A stretch of DNA of 64,000 nucleotides from Mesonia sp. K7 (lineage in GTDB: Bacteria; Bacteroidota; Bacteroidia; Flavobacteriales; Flavobacteriaceae): NCBI RefSeq assembly GCF_003233725.1, contig NZ_QKQV01000002.1, positions 1-64,000 of the forward strand, read 5' to 3'. Below the pieces are notes generated by a model that was not told the origin of the DNA, ran no database searches, and worked only from the letters and a program-made list of their open reading frames with translations. How positions within the stretch are numbered: position 1 is the first letter of the stretch; each line of letters starts with the position of its first letter. Both the position numbers and the translations under genes were made by a program. This document shows, piece after piece, positions 47,253 through 49,128 of the stretch.

Positions 47253-47501
47253 ATGGACACACAAGCAAAAATAGAAAAAATGAATGCCGTATTAAACAAA
47301 ATGGAAGACATCAAAAACTCCCAGCAAAGTTTAATCAATAAGATAGGCCAAGTAGAAGTCGATTTATTCGAGATTAAATCAGACGATCTAGATAAAGAGT
47401 TGGATAAAGTGATGAAAAAAGCCACGCGTTCTTTCGAGATCATCAACGAAGCGATTGAAGAGTTTGAGATCAAACGCAACCGTTTGGAGAATGAGGCGTA
47501 A
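47253..47501 (+). CDS. Small coiled-coil protein of unknown function
   Basis: An 82-residue soluble protein that is almost entirely helical with heptad-like spacing (MNAVLNKMEDIKNSQQSLIN, KIGQVEVDLFEIKSDDLDKE, LDKVMKKATRSFEIINEAIE). It is strongly charged, with no Cys, signal or membrane segment. I know no named family; it is likely a self-associating helical hairpin. Its TAA stop lies within the repeat block that begins GTAATGACGT at 47498, so the repeat array directly abuts, and may supply, the end of the gene. A GIY-YIG gene and three small charged-protein genes follow. Confidence 0.75.
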   Translation: MDTQAKIEKMNAVLNKMEDIKNSQQSLINKIGQVEVDLFEIKSDDLDKELDKVMKKATRSFEIINEAIEEFEIKRNRLENEA

Positions 47502-47512
47502 TGACGTAAGGT

Positions 47513-47574
47513 AACACGTGATGGGATTACTTCGTCATCCCGAGTACTCGGGATTCCTCGTAATGACGTGGGGC
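47513..47574. repeat. 62-bp palindrome-bearing repeat, left copy beside the GIY-YIG gene
   Basis: Identical over 62 bp to 48025-48086 and in the same orientation. It contains the perfect palindrome CCCGAGTACTCGGG within an outer inverted pair CGTCAT...TAATGACG. The preceding GTAATGACGT is also shared by both copies. Confidence 0.95.
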
Positions 47575-47576
47575 GA

Positions 47577-47606
47577 ACGCGAGGTACGAGCGAGAAGCAA
47601 TCTAGG
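47577..47606 (+). repeat. CGCGAGGTACGA...GAAGCAATC(T)AGG element, left copy
   Basis: CGCGAGGTACGA, then GAAGCAATCTAGG. A close relative lies at 47944-47971 on the other side of the GIY-YIG gene in the same orientation. The form recalls the widespread intergenic motif GCGAGG-GAAGCAATC. Confidence 0.8.
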
Positions 47607-47615
47607 CATAGGTAA

Positions 47616-47903
47616 TTAAATGGTTTCACTCAAGTCATCCCAATTTGGGTTTACTTTATTAATCAAGGCTTCTTTTGCTTTTCTATTTCCTGCCTTTAGC
47701 TGTTTTTCTCTTGCTATCGCATCTACAATCGAAGAAAACCTTTCAAAATATACCAATTTATCACAGTTATACCTTGCCGTAAAACTCCTTTTATACTTTT
47801 TGGTCTTATGTTGGTGTACGCGTTGTGTCAGATGAGTAGTTACACCGATGTATATAACCGTATTCCTTGCATTGGTCATCATATAAACATGGGAAGTTTT
47901 CAT
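47616..47903 (-). CDS. Single-domain GIY-YIG nuclease
   Basis: A 95-residue protein consisting only of a GIY-YIG endonuclease domain. The first half-motif is VYMMTNARNTVIYIGVTTHL (the GIY equivalent is VYM at 6-8, YIG at 18-20). The catalytic Arg is in LTQRVHQHK (Arg28), KLVYFERF follows at about 50, and AIAREKQLKAGNRKAKEALI at about 63 supplies the Glu. NPNWDDLSETI ends the protein as in the UvrC/YhbQ-like subgroup common in Bacteroidota. No accessory DNA-binding domain is present. Direct repeats lie within a few bases to tens of bases on both sides, so nuclease and repeats may form one unit. Confidence 0.93.
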   Translation of the reverse strand: MKTSHVYMMTNARNTVIYIGVTTHLTQRVHQHKTKKYKRSFTARYNCDKLVYFERFSSIVDAIAREKQLKAGNRKAKEALINKVNPNWDDLSETI

Positions 47904-47943
47904 AGTATAAAGCTACTACTTTTTATCAACACGTCATTGGGAC

Positions 47944-47971
47944 CGCGAGGTACGAATCGGGAAGCAATCCA
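47944..47971 (+). repeat. CGCGAGGTACGA...GAAGCAATCCAGG element, right copy
   Basis: CGCGAGGTACGAATCGGGAA followed by GCAATCCAGG. Pairs with the copy at 47577-47606; together they bound the GIY-YIG gene. Confidence 0.8.
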
Positions 47972-47979
47972 GGGGTTGA

Positions 47980-48024
47980 TGATGGGATTACTTCGTCGTT
48001 ACACTCCTCGTAATGACGTGGGGG
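47980..48024. repeat. Partial copy of the palindromic repeat
   Basis: GATGGGATTACTTCGTCGTT then CTCCTCGTAATGACGTGGGG: the ends of the 62-bp repeat are kept, but the CCCGAGTACTCGGG core is lost. It lies in tandem with the full right copy. Confidence 0.8.
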
Positions 48025-48086
48025 AACACGTGATGGGATTACTTCGTCATCCCGAGTACTCGGGATTCCTCGTAATGACGTGGGGC
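48025..48086. repeat. 62-bp palindrome-bearing repeat, right copy
   Basis: Identical to 47513-47574. It is followed by AACACGTCATTGCGA, a further partial unit. Confidence 0.95.
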
Positions 48087-48230
48087 AACACGTCATTGCG
48101 AACCAATACATAACCTAATTAACGCCGAACGATCTTTAGGATAGGTTTAACAAACACTGTTAATGTGTATTAATCTTCACAAAAAATGAGAATTCATTAC
48201 TTAAATTTAGGAAACCTTTAAAAATATAGT

Positions 48231-48407
48231 ATGATGAGTGATAAAAATAAAATTCCAGGACAAGACGAAAAGAAAACAGGACAAGACGAGAAGAAAAGCA
48301 AAGAAGACAGTGCTATCAATCATAAGGCTAATGAGGCCGATAGTAAAGAAATCAACTACCAAGAAAAGAAGCGCAGAGAAAAACATCAACCTAGGGATAG
48401 CGCCTAA
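48231..48407 (+). CDS. Small charged, probably disordered protein 1
   Basis: A 58-residue protein, MMSDKNKIPGQDEKKTGQDE at the start and REKHQPRDSA at the end. It is almost entirely Lys, Glu, Asp, Gln, Asn and Ser, with an internal repeat GQDEKK(T/S), and no hydrophobic core, Cys or membrane segment, so it is predicted to be intrinsically disordered. A longer frame in another register overlaps it but lacks its coding character. The shared DKNK near the N-terminus and the head-to-tail layout link it to the next two genes. It resembles hydrophilin or general-stress proteins in composition only. Confidence 0.7.
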   Translation: MMSDKNKIPGQDEKKTGQDEKKSKEDSAINHKANEADSKEINYQEKKRREKHQPRDSA

Positions 48408-48412
48408 AATAA

Positions 48413-48526
48413 ATGAATATGGAAAACGATAAAAATAAGAAAGATAAAAAGCCAGAAAGTTTAGATCCTAAAAACCTTAAAGGTCCGCAAAAAGATAAAA
48501 ATCAACCAGTATGGAGATCAGAATAA
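48413..48526 (+). CDS. Small charged, probably disordered protein 2
   Basis: A 37-residue frame: MNMENDKNKKDKKPESLDPK, then NLKGPQKDKNQPVWRSE. It starts 5 bp after the stop of the previous small gene and has the same DKNK element and Lys/Asp/Pro-rich composition. The single Trp near the C-terminus stands out. It is short enough that coding status rests on its spacing and on the likeness to its neighbours. Confidence 0.6.
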   Translation: MNMENDKNKKDKKPESLDPKNLKGPQKDKNQPVWRSE

Positions 48527-48565
48527 GACAACTTGATTGAAGTAAACAGTTTAAAATTTAAGATT

Positions 48566-48790
48566 ATGAACGACAAAAATAAAAGAGCTCCATTACTAGA
48601 TAAAGATCTAGAGAATGAGCAAAATATAGAAAACGAAGACTATCCAGGAGAACCCAACTCTAAGCCCAAGGATAAAAAACCAGAGAAGAATGATTCTAAA
48701 AAGATGCCAGAAGCAAACGACCCAGCTGGATACAGCAAAAAGGAGAGAATCAAGAAATCTCCTTACGATGAGGAGAACAAATCTAAATAG
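48566..48790 (+). CDS. Small charged, probably disordered protein 3
   Basis: A 74-residue protein beginning MNDKNKRAPLLDKDLENEQN and ending KERIKKSPYDEENKSK. The ATG at 48566 is chosen over a non-ATG codon 33 bp upstream because it matches the DKNK start of the two preceding small proteins. The middle (NIENEDYPGEPNSKPKDKKP) is Pro/Lys/Glu-rich. A strong terminator follows after about 20 bp, which makes the three genes look like one short operon (48.2-48.85 kb). Confidence 0.75.
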   Translation: MNDKNKRAPLLDKDLENEQNIENEDYPGEPNSKPKDKKPEKNDSKKMPEANDPAGYSKKERIKKSPYDEENKSK

Positions 48791-49043: not shown

Positions 49044-49128
49044 CGGAGAAAGAGGGATTCGAACCCCCGGAGGTGTGACCCTCAACAGTTTTCAAGACTG
49101 CCGCATTCGACCACTCTGCCATTTCTCC
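49044..49128 (-). tRNA. tRNA-Ser(UGA)
   Basis: An 85-nt class II tRNA. The acceptor GGAGAAA (from 49128) pairs with TTTCTCC, discriminator G at 49044; CCA is not encoded. The anticodon loop CTTGAAA is closed by GCAGT/ACTGT and carries anticodon TGA at 49094-49092. A long variable arm (GAGGGTCACACCTC) and T-arm GGGGGTTCGAATCCC-type sequence confirm serine. Confidence 0.95.

Follow-up and report, generated by a model that had tools for sequence, protein, structure and literature searches.

A small GIY-YIG nuclease gene framed by CGTC-tagged palindromes: a candidate partner for an orphan class of bacterial repeats

The first 64,000 nucleotides of contig NZ_QKQV01000002.1 of Mesonia sp. K7 (the window) carry, on the minus strand at 47616-47903, a gene for a 95-residue protein with a single GIY-YIG nuclease domain, placed between two copies of a 62-bp repeat. 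The first-pass annotation, made from the DNA letters, suggested that gene and repeats form a unit comparable to repetitive extragenic palindromic sequences (REPs) and their REP-associated tyrosine transposases (RAYTs), which raises the question of whether nuclease and palindromes belong together and whether the one could spread the other. Direct reading agrees with the gene and its flanking repeats as first described: the copies at 47513-47574 (downstream of the gene) and 48025-48086 (upstream) are identical and in direct orientation, and the exact match over 62 bp excludes a chance origin. The comparison to REP/RAYT is supported by the enrichment of related repeats at such genes in 80 loci from many phyla, in the genus, and in 100 genomes of the taxonomic family. 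Nuclease and repeats thus form a genuine and widespread unit: their association and layout, conserved catalytic-type residues, gain or loss of the cassette at homologous sites and a tie between REP number and the gene are all shown. Spreading of the repeats by the nuclease is the best-supported explanation but is unproven, and we infer binding, cleavage and the copying route.

The repeats resemble a known class. In the accessible part of Di Nocera 2013 (PMC3733652), CGTC-REPs have a CGTC tag (TGTC in many), a stem of 8-9 bp opening with AT, a loop of 4-5 and mostly a CCA tail; they form mostly inverted pairs, occur in five phyla, and include the dRS3 repeats of Neisseria and some Rickettsia palindromic elements (RPE). 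The same part of that paper reports that no dedicated transposase was found, and its authors suggest that the repeats might be nearing extinction or be moved by unrelated enzymes. The repeats near the GIY-YIG genes generally resemble them in the tag, a stem of about 8 bp opening with AT, the loop of 4-5, a tail that is often CCA, and pairing in opposite orientation, the window copies being long and imperfect. A difference from the CGTC-REPs as described there, for which no enzyme is reported, is the GIY-YIG gene lying between them. Framed in nearly every case by CGTC-REPs, a nuclease of some 95 residues offers these orphan repeats a concrete, testable partner, and we regard the single-domain GIY-YIG enzyme as the leading candidate for the missing one.

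Using as query five small GIY-YIG proteins of the genus (A2), chosen as proteins and with repeats or hairpins already seen at their loci, we took the best 80 of at least 556 confirmed relatives by protein similarity and kept every locus in the counts. By submitters' titles these loci, many of them from metagenome bins, represent 30 phylum-level groups; many of the best named relatives are Flavobacteriaceae. Perfect hairpins with the GTC-AT tag are concentrated at the gene, with 100 within 100 bp (6.3 per kb), 35 at 100-200 bp, 21 at 200-300 bp and 13 at 300-500 bp, and fall to 0.03-0.08 per kb from 0.5 to 10 kb. The density of GTC-tagged hairpins within 100 bp is about 150 times that at 1-10 kb, and the scrambled tag CTG-AT gives 0, 0, 0, 0, 1, 0, 0 and 1 over the eight distance bins. 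A tagged perfect hairpin is present within 300 bp in 62 of the 80 loci, and within 400 bp, with one mismatch allowed, in 64. By a strict rule, a tagged REP lies within 150 bp of 61 of the 80 genes (on both sides in 43), compared to 35 of 897 other open reading frames (ORFs) taken from the same loci more than 500 bp away (both sides in 3). Among small other ORFs of these loci (up to 150 codons), the figure is 6 of 190.

The strict rule overlooks long imperfect palindromes: 16 of the 80 loci fail it and 11 of these pass a relaxed rule, under which a tagged palindrome accompanies 74 of the 80 genes (both sides in 55) compared to 256 of 3712 background windows (6.9%). Scrambled tags under the relaxed rule give 7, 11 and 3 of 80, both sides in none. 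The remaining five strict-rule failures (L053, L054, L070, L075, L110) have GTC-tagged variants recognised by eye only. The tags of the 189 REPs near genes are TGTC in 153, CGTC in 22, AGTC in 9 and GGTC in 5, GTC and AT being built into the search rule; stems of 8-9 bp (183 of 189) and loops of 4-5 (170 of 189) prevail within what that rule admits, and the tail is CCAN in 90. The first-pass annotation had named two findings that would speak against it, repeats spread evenly without enrichment at GIY-YIG genes and relatives with the gene and no repeat. The distribution is far from even, with strong enrichment in all three sets, and genes lacking a repeat are few: the relaxed rule finds no recognisable tagged repeat at 6 of the 80 subfamily genes, and L012 in the genus and L129 on a plasmid are further examples. 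As a separate observation, made by eye, the REP-framed gene stands directly before a gene starting like ksgA in L053, L054, L070 and L075, one of which is labelled Nitrotoga and is perhaps a mis-binned contig.

In the commonest layout, found in 31 of the 46 two-sided loci, both tags point outward ("> gene <"); the others are 5 "<>", 3 ">>" and 7 "<<". The nearest REP is tag-out in 42 of 57 cases on the left and 43 of 53 on the right. Their spacing is narrow: on the left, 26 of the 42 stop 24-39 bp short of the matched stretch, and on the right the gap is 3-33 bp for 38 of the 43. Neighbouring REPs with no gene between them are mostly inverted in the same loci (42 "><", 36 "<>", 21 tandem), so that the unit resembles a REP pair with the gene in the gap. 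Tandem copies of the unit are present in one genome (G011), and the gene is found in 0 to several copies per genome. A low gene copy number is shared with RAYT systems.

The number of REPs is linked to the presence of the gene. Within the genus, the window protein finds a match in 14 of 16 genomes, and the REP pattern GTCATSCTGAANNNNNTTCAGSAT has 139 matches in 13 of the 16, with none for the reversed control. For twelve of the 139, one of 17 subfamily genes is no more than 300 bp away, where 0.06 would be expected under uniform placement. The 11 genomes counted as having the subfamily (best match of at least 45 bits) hold 11.9 matches on average and the 5 without it 1.6 (Mann-Whitney p 0.01, kinship ignored). 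Over all genus subfamilies, 47 of 63 distinct small GIY-YIG genes have a tagged REP or an exact repeat of at least 14 bp shared between their 300-bp flanks, compared to 0 of 33 large GIY-YIG genes in the same genomes (16 of UvrC size and 17 other large ones); the totals are taken over all 63 genes, subfamily labels by regular expression being crude (several S1 genes in S3+).

In the family set of 100 genomes from 99 genera, with the gene called by the A2 profile (E < 1e-26), GTCATSCTGAANNNNNTTCAGSAT has 139 matches in 30 genomes, a total equal to that of the genus by coincidence; the two sets have two genomes and 8 matches in common. The gene is present in 25 of the 30 genomes with the pattern and in 16 of the 70 without it (Fisher 2e-8). 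All 18 genomes with at least three copies hold the gene, and none of the 59 gene-less genomes reaches three, one REP type being counted. Of these 139 matches, 24 are at most 300 bp from any of the 79 genes, compared to 0.075 expected. For the REP type counted, this link fits REPs that need the enzyme better than an enzyme that merely needs REPs. A strict pairing of one REP sequence with one GIY-YIG clade was rejected, as it is not found at fine scale: in the three genomes with window-like REPs, other palindromes, mostly GTC-tagged, frame the GIY-YIG genes (by eye).

The window protein matches PF01541 with 54.6 bits (Pfam cut-off 22.6; E 1.4e-14). Pfam finds on it GIY-YIG only, with no HUH motif or catalytic tyrosine of IS200/IS605 type; the protein is therefore not a RAYT, though it may act alike. 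An AlphaFold2 model built from 42 sequences shows one GIY-YIG domain with high confidence (pLDDT 96.4). In an alignment of 78 rows including the window protein (three of the 80 loci were omitted for an in-frame stop, and 77 of the 80 matched stretches are open), residues Y7, Y18, G20, R28, H32, E66, K67, K70, K77 and N85 are invariant in every row. The conserved tyrosine, arginine, glutamate and related residues, of catalytic type, would have the roles known from I-TevI and UvrC. Among solved structures, the UPF0213 protein 1zg2, SLX1 and the N-terminal domain of UvrC come closest, and of these only 1zg2 passes E 0.001. UPF0213-type small proteins (PDB 1zg2 and 1ywl, "hypothetical" in the PDB) are of equal size and fold, whereas the GIY-YIG domains of SLX1 and UvrC have a weakly similar fold but are parts of larger repair proteins. 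The GIY-YIG tree is patchy, with the Bacteroidota needing 6 changes at least by parsimony, 2 of them forced by well-supported branches.

A tblastn search of the L113 protein against 72,556 plasmid records matched 33 records, including Sinorhizobium, Azospirillum lipoferum, Novosphingobium aromaticivorans, Sphingobium, Rhizobium and two of Neisseria gonorrhoeae; ten loci were read by eye. The REPs are tag-out on both sides in S. meliloti, Shinella, Rhizobium CIAT894 and Aeromonas, and also in Sphingobium and Novosphingobium, but there with stems not opening with AT. Planktothrix has longer repeat variants, and the N. gonorrhoeae gene stands among dRS3-like repeats. Three species named as CGTC-positive by Di Nocera, S. 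meliloti, A. lipoferum and N. aromaticivorans, have the gene among such REPs. On a Planktothrix agardhii plasmid (L128), the GIY-YIG unit lies between the gene of a type IIL restriction-modification enzyme and DISARM drmA.

At homologous sites of three plasmid loci the cassette has been gained or lost. In A. lipoferum 4B the gene, flanked on either side by a REP pair, sits between sufB and sufC. Neither the gene nor the REP pairs of this site are present in A. ramasamyi, A. oryzae and B510, where the aligned part is 95-97% identical. The S. meliloti Ak57 site holds a truncated and a complete copy of the gene; Sinorhizobium K101 (96%) has neither there, retains REP-like palindromes at the empty site and carries such genes elsewhere. 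Likewise, the gene is present in Sphingobium TomTYG46 and TomMM7A and absent at TomTYG74, 72, 64 and 65 (85-91%). At the empty site of TYG64 (and of TYG74, with mismatches) stands one palindrome, CGTCACCCCGGG...CCCGGGGTGACG, which could be a fusion of two REPs or the original single REP. Judged from these alignments, insertion and deletion between repeats are both possible.

The reading towards which we lean, at slightly better than an even chance, is by analogy that of a REP/nuclease unit, in which a RAYT-like but unrelated enzyme would nick CGTC-REPs and spread them with its own unit. The GIY-YIG protein is encoded between CGTC-REPs, and enzyme and palindromes would move and persist jointly. 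The protein would recognise the hairpin, as a single strand or a cruciform, via the GTC tag and the stem, and would nick or cut beside it as a minimal structure-specific nuclease of the SLX1 or UvrC type; the ensuing repair would copy REPs, and occasionally the whole REP-gene-REP unit, into new sites. The enzyme would thus be to CGTC-REPs what the RAYT (TnpA-REP) is to GTAG-REPs, the two enzymes being unrelated. Short tagged palindromes, inverted pairs and a gene framed by its own palindromes are shared with REP/RAYT systems (TnpA-REP, REPtron, REPIN) as presented in the accessible parts of PMC3733652 and PMC8266576. The enzyme here is a GIY-YIG nuclease and not an HUH tyrosine enzyme of IS200/IS605 type, and the tag is GTC (CGTC or TGTC) where that of RAYTs is GTAG, which takes part in TnpA-REP recognition or cleavage (PMC8266576, in the same part). 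Compared to insertion sequences and miniature inverted-repeat transposable elements, inverted tag-out REPs are the commonest layout and no duplication was resolved at the three empty sites. If the nuclease drives the spread of CGTC-REPs, REP/enzyme systems arose at least twice, and the enzyme is small enough for easy biochemistry.

Several observations weigh against this reading. The counts ignore kinship, and the expectations assume uniform placement. In the family set only 13 of the 79 genes have the tested REP type within 300 bp, and five genomes with one or two GTCATSCTGAANNNNNTTCAGSAT copies have no gene. No clear repeat is seen at the genus gene L012 and no clear REP beside the gene of R. 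tumorigenes (L129), and in A. lipoferum and N. gonorrhoeae the REP pairs on both sides have the nearest REP tag-in rather than tag-out. The three empty-site comparisons reveal no target-site duplication, the intergenic divergence being too high for the junctions to be placed; a cassette could also be lost without any enzyme, by recombination between the repeats on its flanks. The window protein forms a long branch (0.93) beside two Treponema genes (98/80, in a weak tree from few columns) and does not have two near-invariant tryptophans (72, 76), and the upstream REP of the window is in a non-canonical orientation. Moreover, flanks can be target and not product, as the tRNA-piece flanks of sister subfamilies illustrate.

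These sisters are other single-domain GIY-YIG subfamilies of the genus, of which 25 loci were scanned, 15 with a tRNA and one with a transfer-messenger RNA (tmRNA). In all 15 tRNA loci, the far side of the GIY-YIG gene carries an exact 11-40 bp stretch of that tRNA, each subfamily having its own tRNA: Asn (L195, L196, L200), Asp (L178, L179, L182, L188), Arg (L186, L192, L193, L031), Phe (L198, L199) and Leu (L201, L209). The search covered the tRNA's own strand, and gene and tRNA are co-directional in 15 of 15. For Arg, one Asn and one Leu, the piece precedes the gene and the complete tRNA follows it; for Asp, Phe, two Asn and one Leu the order is the opposite, with the complete tRNA in front of the gene and the pieces behind. 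Some of these genes stand in tandem copies. From their sequences, they resemble a class of homing elements directed at tRNAs, whose insertion restores the target. Other flanks were noted in passing. In L197 (1404-1802, 1992-2234) an 80-aa GIY-YIG gene stands about 190 bp downstream of the tmRNA gene. The 26-bp sequence GTATTAGTAACGGGAGGTGCGGGTTT, repeated across the gene in L183, would encode VLVTGGAG, which presumably resembles the start of a nucleotide-sugar epimerase, and is perhaps a protein-coding target (by eye). A second repeat-linked subfamily (YVYILQC type and relatives; L036, L028, L190, L176, L238) lies between long repeats of another kind that contain CTCGATACAA-like motifs, some of which start with GTCA.

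Because the tRNA-piece flanks look like target-restoring homing insertion, we keep as the main rival a homing parasite, rather unlikely in our judgement, whose GIY-YIG nuclease would cut REPs as its target and whose gene would copy itself into the cut REPs by repair, the REPs spreading otherwise. On this account the sister subfamilies, between a whole tRNA and its piece, would be free-standing target-restoring elements; the tandem unit copies and the few diverged REPs of the same kind elsewhere in the window genome (L214, L216) also speak for it, and the gene position between REPs by the relaxed rule fits a free-standing homing endonuclease at its cleavage target. Free-standing GIY-YIG homing endonucleases include the phage seg genes, and I-TevI is intron-borne. 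The catalytic core and a gene at a specific or duplicated target are common to them and the present proteins, which differ in having no separate DNA-binding domain, no intron, and multi-copy palindromes as flanks. Homing predicts, however, that REP-rich genomes without the gene are common, and for the one REP type tested no gene-less genome has three copies. The window copy alone may be a relic, once mobile and now decaying, as its non-canonical upstream REP, long protein branch and two lost tryptophans suggest, along with degenerate REPs and a lost tag; against this, the frame is open, all catalytic-type residues are retained, and the exactly identical 62-bp pair suggests recent copying or conversion. 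We consider such decay possible, if on the unlikely side, and compatible with a REP/nuclease unit for the family as a whole.

Host housekeeping by a domesticated SLX1-like nuclease, resolving REP cruciforms and co-inherited with the REPs without any role in spreading them, would agree with the similarity to the SLX1 fold (E above 0.001) and with the constant place before the ksgA-like gene in four loci; it is improbable given the presence and absence at homologous sites, the patchy tree and the varying copy number. It could also be that REPs insert near any small dispensable gene or gene end and that the GIY-YIG genes are merely small, since REPs are intergenic and often behind gene ends (accessible part of PMC3733652). 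Such passive clustering is very improbable given the inverted tag-out layout at short distance, and in its version by gene size it was rejected on the small-ORF and large-GIY-YIG controls (6 of 190 and 0 of 33, against 61 of 80). Beyond the REP/nuclease unit, we tentatively advance a wider possibility, that single-domain GIY-YIG proteins may join the DDE, recombinase and HUH enzymes as a further type of enzyme that mobilises bacterial DNA. Each subfamily would be bound to one kind of flank (CGTC-REPs or one tRNA gene), which it would copy or restore on both sides of the gene, and the present lineage would have made the CGTC-REP superfamily across the bacterial domain.

At the window locus itself, the 62-bp pair belongs to a cluster of about seven tagged palindromes around the gene, and the repeat match widens to 78 bp at 96% (47497-47574 / 48009-48086). 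The perfect palindrome reported inside the repeat is indeed there, 18 bp long (ATCCCGAGTACTCGGGAT) at 47537-47554 and 48049-48066. The description as a 62-bp palindromic repeat was right as to palindromy and incomplete as to structure, which is nested: a CGTC-tagged 18-bp hairpin sits within a longer imperfect palindrome, which on the minus strand is CGTCATTACGAGGA...GACGAAGTAATCCC. On that strand the sequence of the outer repeat is CGTC-ATTACGAGGA-hairpin-GACGAAGTAAT-CCCA (47526-47568 in copy 1, by direct reading; 48038-48080 in copy 2, by sequence and repeat comparison), and three other genomes of the taxonomic family have matches of 84-87% to the copy 1 palindrome over 43-47 bp. The inner hairpin has its own CGTC tag on the plus strand (47533-47554 and 48045-48066, by the same comparison). 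Compared to standard CGTC-REPs, as far as the accessible description goes, with their 8-9 bp stem and loop of 4-5, the inner hairpin is an uninterrupted 18-bp palindrome, standard-looking, nested within a long and imperfect outer one.

Nearer the gene, the second repeat pair first annotated is present (47575-47606 / 47941-47973) but diverged, with blocks of 15-16 bp at 88-93%. Its members are a degenerate plus-strand REP with the tag lost, holding GCGAGGTACGAGCGAGAAGCAATCTAGG and ending 9 bp from the stop codon of the gene (47575-47606), and a plus-strand CGTC-ATTGGGACCGCGAGGTACGAATCGGGAAGCAATCCAGG REP at 47932-47973, whose tag is 28 bp upstream of the start codon. The partial repeat noted at 47980 is real and, by sequence and repeat comparison, corresponds to a tandem CGTC-ATTACGAGGAGTGTAACGACGAAGTAAT REP at 47987-48018 on the minus strand; the 18-mer TGATGGGATTACTTCGTC is found at 47519, 47980 and 48031. 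At the outer edges, the sequence has a truncated REP CGTCATTGCGAACCAATAC (48091-48109, plus strand) and a truncated tag end CGTCATTACGC (47496-47506, minus strand) overlapping the stop codon of the upstream 82-aa gene. CGTC tags precede AT stems at 47533-47536, 47565-47568, 47932-47935 and 48045-48048, and the REP tails are CCCA, CCAGG or TCC. The hairpin strength of the window REPs is not impressive, their single-stranded DNA folding z-scores being unremarkable (-1.37, -0.15 and -1.26, compared to -3.59 for a perfect family REP).

A BLAST search with a 614-bp stretch of the locus found the 62-bp repeat at no other site in the 2.55 Mb (34 contigs) of the same genome, the remaining matches being short or weak, and TGANGAAGYAATCYC occurs twice in the genome, both times at the GIY-YIG locus. 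The pattern CGTCATYNCGA has 15 matches, 6 of them at the locus (reversed-pattern control, 5). By eye, the nine others include at least two diverged relatives of the long type, an inverted pair on C11 at about 204.4 kb (L216) and one copy on C3 at about 6.6 kb (L214), and a likely tag end on C29 (L221). This genome also holds 7 dispersed copies of another CGTC-type REP, some as inverted pairs.

Among the matches listed in a literature search, which covered neither subscription papers nor preprints, no paper paired "GIY-YIG" with "repetitive extragenic palindromic", and looser searches gave none. Neither "GIY" nor "RAYT" occurs in the accessible part of the RepRanger paper (PMC12306157), and PMC6006769 lacks "GIY" altogether and mentions CGTC a single time, among its references.

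The 82-aa neighbour has an ortholog in three other genus genomes without the unit; these orthologs were rejected as a clean empty site, synteny being lost. The sole Rfam match near the locus is a tRNA at 49044-49128. Adjoining the GIY-YIG unit, at 48231-48790, is a series of short lysine- and aspartate-rich ORFs with a 21-bp tandem repeat at 48256-48297.

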